This document shows, piece by piece, positions 11,419 through 34,914 of a DNA stretch of 35,519 nucleotides; position 1 is the first letter of the stretch, and each line of letters begins with the position of its first letter. The notes below the pieces were generated by a model. It saw only the letters and a list, made by a program, of their open reading frames with translations, did not search any database and was not told the origin of the DNA. Made by a program: the position numbers and the translations under genes. Source of the DNA: Nanobdellota archaeon (GTDB lineage: Archaea; Nanobdellota; Nanobdellia; Pacearchaeales; GW2011-AR1); assembly GCA_030647965.1 (NCBI GenBank), contig JAUSIT010000005.1:1-35519 (forward strand). The letters run 5' to 3'.

Positions 11419-11703
11419 TTAAAGAATTTCTAATTTCCCAAATTTGCCTGTGGATAATTGTTTTTCACCTTTAAATTCACTTACCCATCCATTTGTTAGT
11501 TTTATAGTCATTCCTGGTTTGATTTTGTCAATATCTTGATTCCAAAAGCTCATTTTAATTTCTCCAGAATCATCTTTAGCCATAGCATTTGCAACTCTTA
11601 ATTCTTTTCCAAATTTGTTAAATGTTCTTGGTTCTTCTACTGAAATTATTTCAAGTTCTATTTCAACATTACCTTGGTTTGGTTTTAAATCAGAAACTTT
11701 CAT
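11419..11703 (-). CDS. Single OB-fold nucleic-acid-binding protein (SSB/RPA-like)
   Basis: 94 residues forming one OB fold: strand pattern VEIELEIISVEEPRTF, RVANAMAKDDSGEIKMSFW, IKPGMTIKLTNGWVSEFKGEKQLSTGKFG. The GEIKMSFWNQDIDKIKPGM segment is typical of the SOSS-B/RPA-like OB domains that bind single-stranded DNA. It has no acidic C-terminal tail or zinc finger. It could be the main or an auxiliary single-strand binding protein. The leader carries a long hairpin, a GGAG Shine-Dalgarno and TTCGC directly before A-ATG, resembling the leaders of nrdD, fusA and nrdG. Confidence 0.78.
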   Translation of the reverse strand: MKVSDLKPNQGNVEIELEIISVEEPRTFNKFGKELRVANAMAKDDSGEIKMSFWNQDIDKIKPGMTIKLTNGWVSEFKGEKQLSTGKFGKLEIL

Positions 11704-11781
11704 TGCGAAGACACTCCTGGTTTCTTAAAAAATTTTACTCTTATAATATTGCTATTTTCATTTGCAAGAGCAAAATTTTTT
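11704..11781 (-). promoter_or_regulatory. Structured leader of the OB-fold gene with long-hairpin repeat copy 2
   Basis: Read on the minus strand: a long hairpin (plus strand 11727-11742 with 11766-11781; 16-nt stem, one A-C mismatch), then a weaker hairpin in which AAG..AC pairs with GTCTT around the loop CAGGAGT, then CGCA and the ATG at 11703. The hairpin also could end transcription of the gene upstream. It is the second copy of the long-hairpin repeat. Confidence 0.5.
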
Positions 11782-14058: not shown

Positions 14059-14080
14059 TAAAAAAAATAAATGTATTTTC

Positions 14081-14158
14081 GCTTCAAGAAGTGAAGCTTC
14101 AAACACCGACAATCTTTCAGATTCTCGGATGTGCTCGTTACAAGAGGTGTAACTTCGC
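14081..14158 (+). promoter_or_regulatory. Structured nrdD leader, three hairpins, Shine-Dalgarno in the last loop
   Basis: H1 is GCTTC-AAGAAGT-GAAGC (14081-14097). H2 is CCGA.AATCT-TTC-AGATT.TCGG (14106-14128). An 8-nt linker ATGTGCTC follows. H3 is GTTAC-AAGAGGT-GTAAC (14137-14153) with the ribosome-binding GAGGT in the loop, then TTCGC and the ATG at 14159. Order, linker length and the GTGCTC and TTCGC sequences match the fusA leader, although the stem sequences of H2 and H3 differ. CTC of the linker could alternatively pair with GAG of the loop, a possible on/off switch (inference). Confidence 0.6.
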
Positions 14159-17143
14159 ATGAATATAAAAAAAGTTAGAAAAAGAGATGGAAGTGTTGTA
14201 TTATTTCAAAAAGAAAAGATAGCAGAAGCTGTTTGGAGAGCAGCAAAGGCAGTTGGAGGCCAGGATAAAGAAAAAGCAGAACATATTGCTGATTTAGTTT
14301 CTCAAAAACTTGGTTTGAAATATGGTGAAACAGGGATTCCTGAAGTTGAAGAAGTGCAGGATTTAGTTGAAAAAATGCTTATTGAAGAAGGACATGCAAA
14401 AACTGCAAAAGCATATATACTATATAGGAAAAGTCATGAGGAATTGAGAAATGTAAAAGGTTTGTTTGATACTATAGAGGTTGTTGATGATTATGTTGGT
14501 TTAAATGATTGGATGGTTAAAGAAAATTCTAATATGGGATTTTCTTTGCAAGGATTAAATAATTATATTGCAACAAAAATAATTACTAATTACTGGATGA
14601 GAAGGATTTATCCTGAAGCAATAAGAAAAGCACATGAAAATGTTGATTTGCATATTCATGATTTAGGCACTCTTGGAGCATACTGCGTAGGGTGGGATTT
14701 AAATGATTTATTAATTTCTGGATTTAAAGGAGTTGCAGGAAAAGTTGAATCAAAACCTGCAAAACATTTGAGAACTGCATTAGGGCAAATTGTAAATTTC
14801 TTTTATACTTTACAAGGGGAAACAGCAGGAGCACAGGCTTTTTCAAATTTTGATACTTTACTTGCTCCTTTCATAAGATATGATGATTTAGATTATAAAC
14901 ATGTAAAACAAGCAATGCAGGAATTTTTATTTAATATGGCGGTTCCTACAAGGGTGGGATTTCAATGTATGTCTGAAGATACTGAAATATTGACTTTGAA
15001 TGGATGGAAAAATTATGAAGATTTGAAGGTAGGCGATACTATTAAAACTTTTAATATTGGGAAAAAATCTATTGAAGATAAACCTATAAAAAAATTATTC
15101 AAGAGATATTATGAAGGCATTATGTATAATTTGAAAAATAGAATTCAAGACCAACTTATATCTCCCGGGCATAGAATTGTAAGAAAAAAATTTCAGACAG
15201 AAAATTATGTTTTAGAAGAAGTTGAAAAAATTGACAAAATGAAATCTCCTTTTATTGTTCCTATTGCAGGCAGAAATAATAATAAAGATTCAAAATTAAA
15301 AGATGATGAAATAAAATTGCTTGCTTGGGTTATTGCTGAAGGAACAGAAGAAAATTCAAATCAAAAATATAGGCATTCATGTAGAATTACTATTTATCAA
15401 TCTAAAATAAAAAATTATGAAAAGTATAAAGAAATTATTGGACTTTTAAAAAAATTTAAATTAAATTATTCTGAAAGAGATTCTTCTCCAGCATTAGGAG
15501 ATTCTGTGAAAATGATAAGATTGGATGCTGAATCATCAAGAAAAATTCATTTTTTATTTGGAACTAATGAAAGTATTAACTTTATCCCAAAAATTTTATT
15601 TAATCTAAGTAAAAGACAAGCAAGATTATTTTTAGAGACTTATATTAAAGCAGATGGTTTTGAAAATTGTAAAATTAGTACAACTAATAAAAATATTTTA
15701 GATGGGCTTCAACAAATTGCAGTTGATGCAGAGTATGGTTTTACAGTTTTAACAAGACAACCTACAATAGGAAAAAAATTAATTTATGTTTTAAGATTGA
15801 TTAAACATTTAGAAACTTATATTCAAAAAATAGAAAAAGTGAATTATAAGGGGATTATTTGGTGTCCTAATACGGATAATGAAACTGTAATTGCAAGAAG
15901 AAATGGAAAAGTTTTCATTACAGGAAATACACCATTTACAAATATTACTATGGATTTGAAAGTTCCTGTTCATATGAAAAATGAAGCAGTAATTATTGGA
16001 GGAAAACCTCAAAAAGAAACTTATGGGGAATTTCAAAAAGAAATGAATATGATAAATAAGGCCTTTGCAGAATGCATGCTTGAAGGGGATGCGTCTGGTA
16101 GAGTTTTTACATTTCCAATTCCAACATATAATATAACCAAAGATTTTGACTGGGATAATTCTGAATATGATTTAATTTGGGAAATGACTTCTAAATATGG
16201 GATTCCTTATTTTTCAAATTTTATTAATTCTGATATGAAACCAGAAGATGCACGTTCAATGTGTTGCAGATTAAGATTAGATCAGGCAGAATTAAGAAAA
16301 AGGGGCGGAGGATTATTTGGAAGTAATCCTTTAACTGGTTCAATAGGTGTTGTAACAATAAATATGCCTAGATTGGGTTTTAGTTCTGCAGATGAACAAG
16401 ATTTTTTAAAAAGATTAGGTGAATTAATGGAACTGGCAAAAGAAAGTTTAGAAATAAAAAGAAAAACAATAGAACAATTTACAGAAGTTGGATTATATCC
16501 TTATTCTAAATTTTATTTAAGAAGTATTAAAATGAAATTTGGAGAGTATTGGAAAAATCATTTTTCTACAATAGGATTATTGGGAATGAATGAAGCAATA
16601 ATGAATATTTATCCTGGTGAAAATATTGGAACTCCTAAAGGGGTTGAATTTACTATGAGAGTTTTAGGATTTATGAGAAAAAAACTTGAAGAATATCAAC
16701 AAGAAACAGGAAATATATATAATTTAGAAGCAACGCCTGGAGAGGGAACTACTTATAGATTTGCAAGAAATGATAAAAAAAGATTTGGCAAAATTATTGT
16801 TGCAAATGAAGAAGCTTTTAGAAAAGGTGCAAAACCATATTATACTAATTCAACACAATTACCTGTAAATTATACTGATGATTTATTTGAAGCATTAGAA
16901 TTGCAAGATGAACTTCAGATAAGATATACTGGTGGAACTGTTTTTCATGCTTATATTGGAGAAAAACTTCAAAAAGAAGAGATTAAGATGCTAATAAAAA
17001 AAATTGCAGATAATTTTAGAATGCCTTATTTTACAATAACGCCAGTATTTTCAATTTGTCCTATTCATGGTTATTTATATGGAAATCATGAATACTGTCC
17101 AAAATGTGATGAAGAAATTGGATTTATAGAAAATACTAATTAG
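14159..17143 (+). CDS. nrdD: Class III anaerobic ribonucleotide reductase, main chain, with intein
   Basis: Reduces NTPs to dNTPs with a glycyl radical made by NrdG. 994 codons: 673 extein residues plus a 321-residue intein (residues 270-590). An ATP-cone is at residues 1-95. The active-site Cys176 lies in LGAYCVGWDL, and the second conserved Cys is in ARSMCCRLRLD after the intein. The C-terminal metal site is SICPIHGYLYGNHEYCPKC. The chain stops just after this site (GFIENTN), so the glycyl-radical loop that normally follows is missing; it is encoded by the separate gene at 17194. The intein sits between VGFQ and TPFTN. No SD lies outside the leader hairpin. Confidence 0.95.
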   Translation: MNIKKVRKRDGSVVLFQKEKIAEAVWRAAKAVGGQDKEKAEHIADLVSQKLGLKYGETGIPEVEEVQDLVEKMLIEEGHAKTAKAYILYRKSHEELRNVKGLFDTIEVVDDYVGLNDWMVKENSNMGFSLQGLNNYIATKIITNYWMRRIYPEAIRKAHENVDLHIHDLGTLGAYCVGWDLNDLLISGFKGVAGKVESKPAKHLRTALGQIVNFFYTLQGETAGAQAFSNFDTLLAPFIRYDDLDYKHVKQAMQEFLFNMAVPTRVGFQCMSEDTEILTLNGWKNYEDLKVGDTIKTFNIGKKSIEDKPIKKLFKRYYEGIMYNLKNRIQDQLISPGHRIVRKKFQTENYVLEEVEKIDKMKSPFIVPIAGRNNNKDSKLKDDEIKLLAWVIAEGTEENSNQKYRHSCRITIYQSKIKNYEKYKEIIGLLKKFKLNYSERDSSPALGDSVKMIRLDAESSRKIHFLFGTNESINFIPKILFNLSKRQARLFLETYIKADGFENCKISTTNKNILDGLQQIAVDAEYGFTVLTRQPTIGKKLIYVLRLIKHLETYIQKIEKVNYKGIIWCPNTDNETVIARRNGKVFITGNTPFTNITMDLKVPVHMKNEAVIIGGKPQKETYGEFQKEMNMINKAFAECMLEGDASGRVFTFPIPTYNITKDFDWDNSEYDLIWEMTSKYGIPYFSNFINSDMKPEDARSMCCRLRLDQAELRKRGGGLFGSNPLTGSIGVVTINMPRLGFSSADEQDFLKRLGELMELAKESLEIKRKTIEQFTEVGLYPYSKFYLRSIKMKFGEYWKNHFSTIGLLGMNEAIMNIYPGENIGTPKGVEFTMRVLGFMRKKLEEYQQETGNIYNLEATPGEGTTYRFARNDKKRFGKIIVANEEAFRKGAKPYYTNSTQLPVNYTDDLFEALELQDELQIRYTGGTVFHAYIGEKLQKEEIKMLIKKIADNFRMPYFTITPVFSICPIHGYLYGNHEYCPKCDEEIGFIENTN
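14966..15928 (+). mobile_element. Intein with LAGLIDADG homing endonuclease inside nrdD
   Basis: 321 codons in frame. It begins with Cys (CMSEDTEILTLNGWKNYED, block A), has SPGH in block B and ends VFITGN before the Thr of TPFTN. The penultimate residue is Gly rather than the usual His. Two dodecapeptide motifs, LLAWVIAEG and LFLETYIKADG, keep the acidic residues of a LAGLIDADG nuclease, so homing activity may survive. NrdD of Methanocaldococcus jannaschii also carries inteins, so the host protein is a known target. Confidence 0.92.
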
Positions 17144-17562: not shown

Positions 17563-17610
17563 AGAAGAGTATAATATATTTTAAAAAGTAGTGTTTTAAT
17601 CTAGAGATAT

Positions 17611-17663
17611 GAAAATTTCACTAAATTTTCAATTACTCAATTGTGGAGGACAATTTTCGCATC
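17611..17663 (+). promoter_or_regulatory. Structured nrdG leader, Shine-Dalgarno in a hairpin loop
   Basis: GAAAATTT-CACT-AAATTTTC (17611-17630), then an 8-nt linker AATTACTC, then AATTGT-GGAGG-ACAATT (17639-17655), then TTCGC, ATC and the ATG at 17664. The geometry is that of the nrdD and fusA leaders, with different stem sequences. Confidence 0.6.
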
Positions 17664-18476
17664 ATGAAAATAAAAGGGTTTCAGAAATTAACTTTAATTG
17701 ATTATCCTGGTAAGTTAGCAAGTAGTATTTTTCTTTTTGGATGTAATTTTAAATGTGGCTTTTGCCATAATCCTGAATTAGTTTTAAAACCTAGTTTAGA
17801 AAGTTATTCTGAAGAAGATATTTTAAATTTCTTGGAAAAAAGAAAAAAATATCTTGATGGAGTTTGTTTTACTGGTGGAGAGCCTTTAATGACTTTAGAT
17901 ATAAATTTCGTGGAAAAGATAAAAGCACTAGGATATTTTATAAAAATTGATACAAATGGCTCTTTTCCTGAAAAATTATTGGAATTGATAAATGAAAATT
18001 TAATTGATTATGTTGCAATGGATATTAAATCTTCAAAAGAAAAATATTCTGAAATAACAAATGTTGATGTAAATTTTTTAGATGTCCAAAATGTGGTTCA
18101 AGTTACACCATCTAATACAATTCATTTTGGAGCATCCCAAAATCCGAACAAACCACATTTCTCTGAATGTGGTAAGATTCATGGATTTTATGATTTAGAA
18201 GAAAGCATAAAATTAATTTCAAATCTTCCTGATTATGAATTCAGAACAACTATTTTAGAAGAATATCATGATATTGCAGAAATAAGAAAAATTTTAGAAT
18301 GGCTAAATAAAACTAGTGGGAAAAAAATTAAAAGATTTGTTTTGCAGGGTTTTAAAAATCATGGAAAATTAATTGACAGCAAGTTTAATGAAGAAAAAAA
18401 TACTTCTGAAGAGCATTTATTAAAATTAAAGAAAATTGCAGAAGAGTATTGCGATAATGTTATTGTGAGGGTTTGA
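17664..18476 (+). CDS. nrdG: Anaerobic ribonucleotide reductase activating enzyme
   Basis: Radical-SAM enzyme that generates the glycyl radical of class III reductase. 270 residues from ATG 17664; the in-frame GTG at 17643 lies inside the Shine-Dalgarno hairpin and is rejected. The CxxxCxxC iron-sulfur motif is CNFKCGFCHNPE and the SAM-binding GGE is FTGGEP. About 36 residues (roughly 140-176, NVVQVTPSNTIHFGASQ...) look like an in-frame insertion, and the DNA there contains two inverted repeats. Its 3' end meets the ORF of rpe. It must recognise the small glycyl-radical protein, encoded 0.35 kb upstream. Confidence 0.93.
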   Translation: MKIKGFQKLTLIDYPGKLASSIFLFGCNFKCGFCHNPELVLKPSLESYSEEDILNFLEKRKKYLDGVCFTGGEPLMTLDINFVEKIKALGYFIKIDTNGSFPEKLLELINENLIDYVAMDIKSSKEKYSEITNVDVNFLDVQNVVQVTPSNTIHFGASQNPNKPHFSECGKIHGFYDLEESIKLISNLPDYEFRTTILEEYHDIAEIRKILEWLNKTSGKKIKRFVLQGFKNHGKLIDSKFNEEKNTSEEHLLKLKKIAEEYCDNVIVRV

Positions 18477-32591: not shown

Positions 32592-32653
32592 AAAAAATAT
32601 AGAAGGGTAATCTTTTTAAACCTCTTTTTTTTAATCAGTTTATACAAAATCTC

Positions 32654-32727
32654 GCTTCTCACGAAGCTTCGAACTTAGAGAATTTTAAAAATTCTCTGGG
32701 TGCTCATTTGTAGAGGACAAATTTCGC
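32654..32727 (+). promoter_or_regulatory. Structured fusA leader, Shine-Dalgarno in a hairpin loop
   Basis: H1 is GCTTC-TCAC-GAAGC (32654-32667), H2 is AGAGAATTT-TAA-AAATTCTCT (32677-32697), an 8-nt linker GGGTGCTC, H3 is ATTTGT-AGAGG-ACAAAT (32706-32722), then TTCGC and the ATG at 32728. The architecture and the GTGCTC and TTCGC sequences match the nrdD leader. TTTTTAAA at 32614-32621 is a possible TATA box. Confidence 0.65.
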
Positions 32728-34914
32728 ATGGCAGAAGAAAAAAATTTCGATAAGATTAAAAGACTAATTAAGAGTCAGATTAATATTAGAAACATCGCTA
32801 CTTCTGCTCATATTCATCATGGAAAAACTGCTTTTACTGATAATCTTTTGGCTGCAGCTGGAAAGCTTGCTGAAAAAAATGCAGGGAATTTAGAAGCAGG
32901 AATGGCAACATGGCAGCATTCTGATGAACAAGAAAGATTATTGACTGTTGATTCTGCAAATGTTTCTATGGTTCATGAATTTCAGGGACAAGAATATTTA
33001 GTTAATTTAATTGATACTCCTGGACATGTAGATTTTTCAGGAAATGTTACAAGGGCAATGAGAGCAATTGACGGCACTGTTGTTTTAGTTTGTGCATCAG
33101 AAGGAATTATGCCTCAAACAGAAACTGTTTTAAAACAAGCATTAAGAGAAAGAGTAAAACCTGTTTTGTTTATTAATAAAGTTGATAGATTAATCAAAGA
33201 ATTAAAATTAAATCCTGAACAAATGCAGGAGAGATTTAAAAAAATAATTAATGAATTTAATAAATTAGTTTTAGCTATTGCAGAACCTGGATTTGGAAGC
33301 AAATGGCAAGTTAGTGTTGCAGATGGAAGTGTATGTTTTGGTTCTGCAAGAGATAACTGGGCTTTAACAGTTCCATATATGAAAAAGAAAAATGTTTCTT
33401 TTGCAGATATTTATAAAATTTATGAGATGGAAGAAAAAGAAAGAAAAGATTGGGTTTGGAAAAATGCATCTTTATTTGAAGTAATTATGGATATTGTTGT
33501 AAAACATTTACCAAGTCCACTAGAAGCTCAAAAATATAGGATTCCAAAAATTTGGAGAGGAGATTTAGAATCAGAATTTGGAAAAAATTTAATAAATTGC
33601 AATCCTGATGGGGAGATTGCATTTGTTATTACTCGAATTGTAATTGATCCAAAATCAGGAAAAGAAATTTCAGCAGGAAGATTATGGTCTGGAACTTTAA
33701 AAGTTGGAATGGATGTTTATTTAAATTTATTAAAGAAAAAACAAAGAATTCAGCAAGTTTTAGTTTACGACGGAATAAAGCCAGAACAAGTTGAAGAAGT
33801 TTCTGCAGGAAATGTTTTAGCTATTTCAGGTATTATGGGAGAAGCAGGAGAGACAATTACATTGAATGAACAACAGCCATTTGAAGAAATGAAACCAATA
33901 TTTGAACCAGTTATTACAAAAGCAATTGAAGTTGAAAAATCAGTTGACTTGCCAAAATTAATTGAAGTTTTGAGAAAAGTTGCAAAAGAAGATCCATCAA
34001 TAAAAATTGAAATTAATGAAGAGACAGGAGAAAATTTAATTTCAGGAATGGGAGAACTTCATTTAGAAATTGTTGAAAATAGGATTAAAACAGAAAAAGG
34101 AGTTAATGTAAAAACTTCTTCGCCAATTGTAGTTTATAGAGAATCTGTTATGAAAAAATCACCTGAAGTAGAAGGAAAAAGCCCAAATAAACATAATTCA
34201 TTTTATTTTATTGTTGAACCATTAGAAGATGCTGTTTCACAATCAATTGAAAAAGGAGATATTCCTGCAGGAAGAGTAAAGAAAAAAGATGATAAATTAT
34301 GGGCTGCATTAAATGTTGCTGGAGTTTCAAATGAAGAAGCAAGACAGTATAGGGATGTTTTTTCAGGAAGTGTTTTTTTAGATAAAACAAAAGGGGAAGT
34401 TCATATTGGAGAAGTTATTGAATTAATTTTAGATTCTTATGAAAATGTTATGAAGGCAGGACCATTAGCAAGAGAGAAATGTTATAAATTAAAAATTTCT
34501 TTAGTCGATATGAAATTGCATGAAGATGCAATTCATAGAGGGCCTGCACAAGTTTATCCTGCAATAAGAGAAGCAATTAGAGATGGTTTTAAAAATGCAA
34601 CACCGGTTTTGTATGAACCTTTACAGGTACATATGATTGAAGTTCCAACAGAATATATGGGCGAAGTTACAAAATTGATTTCTTCTAAAAGAGGACAGTT
34701 GTTAGATATAAGGCAGGAAGAACATGATAGTTTTATTCAGGCAAAAATTCCTGTTGCTGAAATGATTGGATGGAGTTCTTCTTTAAGAAGTGCAACAAAT
34801 GGAAGAGGAATTTCTTCTTTAATGGAACAGGATTTTGAAAGAATGCCGTCTGAATTGCAACAAAAAATAATTGCACAGATTAGAGCTAGAAAAGGCTTGG
34901 AAGAAAATCAGTAA
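32728..34914 (+). CDS. fusA: Translation elongation factor EF-2
   Basis: GTPase that translocates the ribosome. 728 residues, the usual length. G1 is AHIHHGKTAFTD (residues 27-38), G3 is DTPGHVDF and G4 is NKVD. The diphthamide loop is retained as HEDAIHRGPAQVYP, so the modifiable His is present. Domain V ends with MLARKG-like Lys/Arg residues (QIRARKGLEENQ). The leader is highly structured, which suggests translational control. Followed on the same strand by a small Cys-containing gene and EF-1alpha. Confidence 0.98.
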   Translation: MAEEKNFDKIKRLIKSQINIRNIATSAHIHHGKTAFTDNLLAAAGKLAEKNAGNLEAGMATWQHSDEQERLLTVDSANVSMVHEFQGQEYLVNLIDTPGHVDFSGNVTRAMRAIDGTVVLVCASEGIMPQTETVLKQALRERVKPVLFINKVDRLIKELKLNPEQMQERFKKIINEFNKLVLAIAEPGFGSKWQVSVADGSVCFGSARDNWALTVPYMKKKNVSFADIYKIYEMEEKERKDWVWKNASLFEVIMDIVVKHLPSPLEAQKYRIPKIWRGDLESEFGKNLINCNPDGEIAFVITRIVIDPKSGKEISAGRLWSGTLKVGMDVYLNLLKKKQRIQQVLVYDGIKPEQVEEVSAGNVLAISGIMGEAGETITLNEQQPFEEMKPIFEPVITKAIEVEKSVDLPKLIEVLRKVAKEDPSIKIEINEETGENLISGMGELHLEIVENRIKTEKGVNVKTSSPIVVYRESVMKKSPEVEGKSPNKHNSFYFIVEPLEDAVSQSIEKGDIPAGRVKKKDDKLWAALNVAGVSNEEARQYRDVFSGSVFLDKTKGEVHIGEVIELILDSYENVMKAGPLAREKCYKLKISLVDMKLHEDAIHRGPAQVYPAIREAIRDGFKNATPVLYEPLQVHMIEVPTEYMGEVTKLISSKRGQLLDIRQEEHDSFIQAKIPVAEMIGWSSSLRSATNGRGISSLMEQDFERMPSELQQKIIAQIRARKGLEENQ

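Follow-up and report, generated by a model that had tools for sequence, protein, structure and literature searches.

A small dispersed palindromic repeat, probably mobile, carries a loop Shine-Dalgarno motif to start codons in Pacearchaeota-type archaea

The structured leaders of nrdD, nrdG, and fusA in a 35,519-nucleotide stretch of a Nanobdellota archaeon (the window, contig C30 of a 982-kb draft genome of 45 contigs that is 85% complete) are likely to be copies of a new family of tiny palindromic elements that lie dispersed in the genomes of Pacearchaeota-type DPANN archaea and carry a Shine-Dalgarno (SD) motif in a hairpin loop. Comparison among species indicates that the family is probably mobile.

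RESULTS

Three leaders share one structured unit

Direct reading of the leaders bore out an earlier note on this DNA, which had claimed that nrdD, fusA, and nrdG share a structured leader with GAGG in a hairpin loop and TTCGC at the start. All three end just 5' of AUG in NNN-UC-(6 bp)-RGAGG-(6 bp)-UUC-N'N'N', and a second hairpin (P2) lies directly 5' of this start-proximal unit. The first hairpin beginning with GCTTC that had been described for nrdD and fusA is indeed there, and as the third, 5'-most hairpin it is itself a TC-stem-loop-TTC unit, recognized in each leader by R2, a covariance model of the 28-nt core alone. The features, all on the + strand, are as follows.

14076 to 14103, +: 5' hairpin unit of the nrdD leader, TTT-TC-GCTTCA-AGAAG-TGAAGC-TTC-AAA (R2 match, 40.6 bits, E 1.9e-10); its loop, AGAAG, is an incomplete SD
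14106 to 14128, +: middle hairpin P2 of the nrdD leader, CCGA..TCGG (sequence, RNA fold, part of the match to R1, the other covariance model)
14132 to 14159, +: start-proximal unit of nrdD, TGC-TC-GTTACA-AGAGG-TGTAAC-TTC-GCA (R2 match, 43.4 bits, E 2.3e-11); SD loop at 14143-14147, ATG at 14159
14159 to 17143, +: nrdD, anaerobic ribonucleotide reductase (Pfam NRDD, 6.9e-172, and ATP-cone)
17610 to 17631, +: P2 of the nrdG leader, TGAAAATTT..AAATTTTCA, a type B arm (sequence, fold), which includes an upstream ATG at 17609
17634 to 17661, +: nrdG unit, TAC-TC-AATTGT-GGAGG-ACAATT-TTC-GCA (R2 match, 36.4 bits, E 4.3e-9); SD loop at 17645-17649, ATG at 17664, 3 nt farther from the unit than in nrdD and fusA
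17664 to 18476, +: nrdG, radical-SAM activase (Pfam Radical_SAM, 1.4e-18)
32649 to 32673, +: 5' hairpin unit of the fusA leader, ATC-TC-GCTTC-TCAC-GAAGC-TTC-GAA (R2 match, 19.0 bits, E 0.0023), with a loop that lacks an SD
32674 to 32700, +: P2 of the fusA leader, CTTAGAGAATTTT..AAATTCTCTGGG (sequence, fold)
32701 to 32728, +: start-proximal unit of fusA, TGC-TC-ATTTGT-AGAGG-ACAAAT-TTC-GCA (R2 match, 41.0 bits, E 1.4e-10); SD loop at 32712-32716, ATG at 32728
32728 to 34914, +: fusA, encoding aEF-2 (Pfam EF-G/EF-2 domains)

The three leaders are far more alike than chance would allow: the 982-kb genome has GAGG-N2-9-TTCGCAT at three places, each of them at one of these genes, and the reversed control has none. 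Their folding energies lie only modestly below expectation (z -1.5 to -2.9), and a search of Rfam returned nothing resembling them, with no match at or near the gathering score.

Two intein-like insertions were seen in passing. Pfam NRDD matches two separate stretches of the 994-aa nrdD frame (14159-17143), and the block between them is CMSEDTEILTLNGWKN..ITGNT; the EF-2 gene of a related member of the order (L239, genome G186) has an in-frame intein-like insertion in its GTP-binding domain.

The leaders belong to a dispersed repeat family

A first search, with a loose pattern, covered 200 genomes of the order and gave two further true cases, 5' of the uL24 gene in genome G022 and 5' of a gene for a 174-aa protein in G045. 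The first pattern, TTCGCATG, was discarded as a tool on its own: its hits were mostly due to chance, the true ones being L009 and L013 only. Covariance model R1 was built from five copies, namely, the three window leaders and those two cases. It detected dozens of copies; at E up to 1, this genome has 10 matches, G014 has 15, and G022 has 13. R2 matched this genome 12 times and, at E < 0.001, picked up about 75 copies in 39 genomes. The earlier note had proposed such a covariance-model search, and it turned up many further copies in this genome and its relatives, also before other genes. Over the phylum, R2 matched four of 279 genomes: the genome under study, two more of the same family, and one that was marginal.

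Among 84,980 species genomes, the exact core, TCGCTTTARGAGGTAAAGCTTC, was found only in Candidatus Pacearchaeota and Nanoarchaeota metagenome-assembled genomes (MAGs), and the core with up to two mismatches gave 19 matches versus none for the reversed pattern. By this distribution, the archaeon studied here is itself most likely of the Pacearchaeota type within the DPANN. The repeat is restricted to a few genera of one family. A viral origin was rejected, as the exact core had no match in IMG/VR. We found no paper describing the element among the open-licence literature.

Several loci hold more than one copy. Tandem arrays occur at L116, L097, L131, and L148; in the first of these (positions 1-470, genome G051), the double hairpin is present as four tandem 97-bp copies with a non-SD loop. 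One ribosomal-protein operon of G022 (G022:C139:11193-13814, L081) carries at least four copies, 5' of the adjacent uL14, uL24, uS8, and uS14-like genes. Within the window, the leader of an OB-fold-like gene (11690-11760, - strand), ACCAGGAGTGTCTTCGCAATG, may be a decayed copy, although it has no R2 score.

Paired structure is conserved among copies

The simple unit, designated type B, is about 54 nt long and consists of an A/T-rich hairpin, GAAAATT..AATTTTC, followed by NNN-UC-6 bp-RGAGG-6 bp-UUC-N'N'N'; as DNA or RNA, it is predicted to form two hairpins side by side. Type A copies, such as those at nrdD and fusA, have an extra 5' hairpin and are about 100 nt long.

Forty-nine distinct cores, which had been selected for pairing, show changes on both sides at all nine pairs, with 97.5% of cells paired versus 65.4% when shuffled, 140 double changes versus 38.5, and pairing of only 29-47% once the partner is slid. 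Because of this preselection, an independent test was run on 57 hits of R1, the structure of which did not impose the basal-triplet pairs. Pairing between the triplet that precedes UC and the one that follows UUC holds at 90.6% of positions, against 63.9% under permutation (0/5000), the pairs seen being TGC/GCA, TAC/GTA, TCT/AGA, TCC/GGA, TGT/ACA, CTC/GAG, and TTC/GAA. The basal triplet and the 6-bp stem thus both covary, and UC and UUC form an internal loop between them.

This pairing changes the reading of the segment 5' of the SD hairpin. It had been described as a linker ending in CTC, whereas its NNN pairs with the N'N'N' that follows TTC. The CTC had also been thought able to compete for the GAGG; its first C pairs in the covarying triplet and the UC is one side of the internal loop with UUC, so it is not an anti-SD.

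The earlier view that structure is conserved rather than sequence holds in its first half, given the compensatory changes, but the "rather than" does not, as sequence likeness is also present: the nrdG and uL6 leaders of this genome are 93.6% identical over 47 nt. Similarly, the uL24 and uL14 leaders of G022 have 49 identical nt in common. UC, RGAGG, and UUC are nearly invariant among copies at unrelated sites and in different genera, and the near-invariant UC/UUC beside the second hairpin suggests protein recognition.

Copies at start codons place an SD at fixed distances

Of 74 parsed copies, 44 lie directly 5' of a start codon, a biased set, since start-site copies made up most of the material from which the models were trained; the genomes compared are draft MAGs, and the classes of copies are likewise biased by the manner of finding. 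In these 44 leaders, AUG follows TTC at +2 in 17, at +5 in 26, and at +7 in one, and +3, +4, and +6 are unused; the spacing from GAGG to AUG is accordingly mostly 11 or 14 nt. The RGAGG loop, which offers GAGG(U), is a Shine-Dalgarno by the usual definition, a purine motif at initiation distance from AUG and complementary to the 16S 3' end, CACCTCC, as read from relatives (the 16S end of this genome being unassembled). Ribosomes presumably use it.

Of the 31 window genes examined, about 23 lack any SD-like word in the 20 nt 5' of the start; three of the eight that do have one get it from the element. This agrees with the low SD use published for Nanoarchaeota (PMC5397173). In two-unit leaders (nrdD and fusA here, metK in G018), the SD is present only in the AUG-proximal loop. 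Since most window genes lack an SD and only the AUG-proximal loop is one, we read the element as a ribosome-binding site that travels, and not as a switch dedicated to particular genes. Stronger SD retention in start-site copies than elsewhere was considered and is not claimed: the two sets do not differ clearly and there is a trend only.

The genes 3' of start-site copies have no function common to all. Ribosomal or transcription/translation proteins account for 18 of the 44 (uL14 twice, uL24 twice, uS8, uL6, uL13, uL16, eL18, uL18, uL10, eS1 twice, eS24, Spt4, Rpb4, TFS, and EF-2); the remainder are unrelated and include nrdD, nrdG, metK, and genes for chorismate mutase, phosphoglycerate mutase, a CBS protein, a PIN protein, and an M24 peptidase. 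At uL24, uL14, and eS1, the element is present in more than one genome each.

In type B leaders (e.g., 17609-17663), an ATG in the P2 arm opens a short upstream frame. The stop codon of this frame overlaps the main start codon in several copies, which makes translational coupling conceivable. A conserved leader peptide was rejected, as frames and peptides vary among copies.

Flanking duplications and occupied and empty sites point to insertion

Away from start codons, copies are found at the 3' ends of tRNAs and of genes, as tandem units, or in frame within proteins. The leader is thus not dedicated to the three genes at which the earlier note described it, nor is it conserved for them: among about 20 relatives, whose fusA orthologues are up to 87% identical, none has the element or an SD 5' of the AUG of that gene.

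Direct repeats flank the copies, with a mean score of 20.8 versus 15.8 for permuted partners (0/5000). The target duplications vary in length from 12 to 35 nt, which sets them apart from those of classical transposition, the clearest being 22-35 nt. This genome has two clear cases, one at the 3' terminus of a GTPase gene (L067/L131) and the other L069; none was detectable at nrdD and fusA themselves. Occupied and empty sites can be compared directly at the DP2 C-terminus. In G161 it reads GKDKDKQLKLFV*, after which come the element and the target once more; in the congener G162 it is plain GKEKEKQMKLF*, an empty site.

Copies at tRNA ends are followed by a repeat of the 3' portion of the tRNA. 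Type A copies at tRNA ends (L092, L119, L115, L107, L123, and L133) and at ribosomal-protein starts (L081) have a similar 5' hairpin, CAAAAAC..GTTTTTG. Together, the common hairpin and the repeated tRNA end make it appear that one source feeds both kinds of site.

Insertion in frame is seen in the leucyl-tRNA synthetase (LeuRS) of this genome, in which an extra 18 aa, NMENKKFSKSSAKEVSLQ, correspond to one type B unit of 54 nt; none of 11 relatives has the insertion. Open in-frame copies are also present in a dihydrouridine-synthase (Dus)-like protein and near the ValRS N-terminus.

In the recent copies L105/L149, L067/L131, L104/L143, L080/L179, and L069, the 3' arm of P2 is approximately the reverse complement of the duplicated target, and in such cases the spacer is one nucleotide shorter. 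This hints that target sequence may be copied back into the element (snap-back) during insertion. Over all copies, the test for an inverted target copy was weak (z 2.5), so we claim one for these few recent copies only. The idea that P2 in every leader copies the start codon 3' of it was abandoned because the ATATG(A/G)AAAAT arm, which belongs to the type B unit, is also found in the LeuRS insertion, away from any start.

An IS200/IS605 origin was rejected as well. The search for a cognate enzyme, which covered the Y1 transposase family, found none, with no match in the genome under study (85% complete) or in the genomes G014, G018, G045, and G139, several of which are rich in copies.

DISCUSSION

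How the element may spread and persist

The unit would insert often with duplication of 12-35 nt of its target, and it is found where the host is spared: at tRNA 3' ends, where the end is duplicated; at gene 3' ends, where the C-terminus is duplicated; in frame inside proteins, where 54 nt add 18 codons; and, most commonly, abutting start codons. At the last, the apical (A/G)GAGG loop would serve as an SD 11 or 14 nt before AUG. Start-site copies may be tolerated or favoured since they bring an SD to genes without one. The element is probably selfish in origin and may be put up with or used because it provides what its arrival at a start codon would otherwise upset; we infer that it still moves. 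An additional regulatory role is possible, and the sharp +2/+5 placement together with the share of ribosomal-protein genes could reflect such a selected role.

Comparison with known small elements

The element works like Rickettsia palindromic elements (RPE) and resembles mitochondrial double hairpin elements and miniature inverted-repeat transposable elements (MITEs), but by their defining features it is not clearly a member of any of the three groups. RPE are dispersed palindromic mini-elements that encode nothing themselves and lie in frame in unrelated essential genes, among other places (reviewed in PMC10969869). The copies in LeuRS, the Dus-like protein, and ValRS resemble them in being in-frame insertions into unrelated protein genes. 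RPE, compared here by description, are about 100-150 bp and bacterial, whereas our element is archaeal, about 54 nt in LeuRS, about 100 nt only as type A, has a loop SD, and lies most often at start codons; its exact core is confined to Pacearchaeota/Nanoarchaeota MAGs rather than a rickettsial host. The mitochondrial repetitive or double hairpin elements of Allomyces and sponges are tiny units of one or two hairpins, with compensatory changes, tandem copies, and insertion into genes (PMC2800124). All these traits recur here, but our element is archaeal, carries an SD, and has flanking duplications, which the Allomyces elements lack (PMC2800124).

Like prokaryotic MITEs, including those of Sulfolobus and haloarchaea, the element is short, multicopy, non-autonomous, and flanked by target duplications. 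Unlike those of MITEs, its duplications range from 12 to 35 nt instead of having a fixed length. It appears to have no terminal inverted repeats like those of a known transposon, and a search that covered the Y1 transposase showed no autonomous partner. REP/BIME and IS200/IS605-derived palindromes also combine a hairpin with a short conserved motif next to the stem, but the Y1 family is absent from this genome and most copy-rich genomes. Translational riboswitches and thermometers also have an SD in or near a hairpin just 5' of AUG; here, in contrast, the SD is in an open loop and not sequestered, there is no Rfam match, and the structure is not conserved at orthologous genes.

Alternative explanations

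A genuine cis-regulatory RNA, riboswitch-like or bound by a protein, could control translation initiation of a growth-gene regulon, with the SD hairpin alternating with pairing of the P2 3' arm to the start region and with non-leader copies as relics. The covarying structure, the two exact distances to AUG, the 18 of 44 downstream genes with ribosomal or transcription/translation functions, and an internal loop that could bind a protein are all in keeping with it. We nevertheless regard it as unlikely, given that the element is present or absent at orthologous genes, precedes unrelated genes, is confined to a few genera of one family, and also lies at tRNA ends, within proteins, and at gene 3' ends.

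Alternatively, the repeats may be non-mobile and have spread through gene conversion, tandem duplication, and error-prone repair of breaks (snap-back or template-switch copying), with no dedicated mobile element. Duplications of variable length, the four tandem arrays, P2 3' arms that in recent copies come close to the target's reverse complement, and the lack of a transposase in the Y1 search fit such an origin, yet random repair would not reproduce a near-invariant UC/RGAGG/UUC core across unrelated sites and genera, and we consider it quite improbable. The thought that these are ordinary SD leaders with hairpins alike by chance or convergence draws on the benefit of a loop SD for initiation, the abundance of palindromes in an A/T-rich genome, and the modest folding z scores. 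It is already contradicted by the repeat family: reversed controls and nearly all other genomes lack the core, unrelated genes have long leaders that are almost identical, and copies occur away from start codons. We give it almost no credence.

Implications

A dispersed, probably mobile element thus remains our preferred reading. A more far-reaching form of it, which we offer tentatively and hold to be rather less than an even chance, is that the element represents a new class of mobile hairpin of about 50 nt, moved by a putative enzyme that would copy target sequence into it, each insertion repairing the function that it interrupts, be it through an SD, a duplicated tRNA or protein end, or an open 18-codon frame. 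If this is true, the way in which essential genes of DPANN archaea initiate translation has been rewired by a self-spreading ribosome-binding site. A repeat that sets an SD at precisely the distance needed for initiation would give genomes a direct way to gain ribosome-binding sites, and it would link the expression of essential genes, ribosomal ones among them, to selfish DNA. The family sits in nearly unannotated territory, the DPANN archaea, and its clear empty and occupied sites make these ideas testable by comparison.
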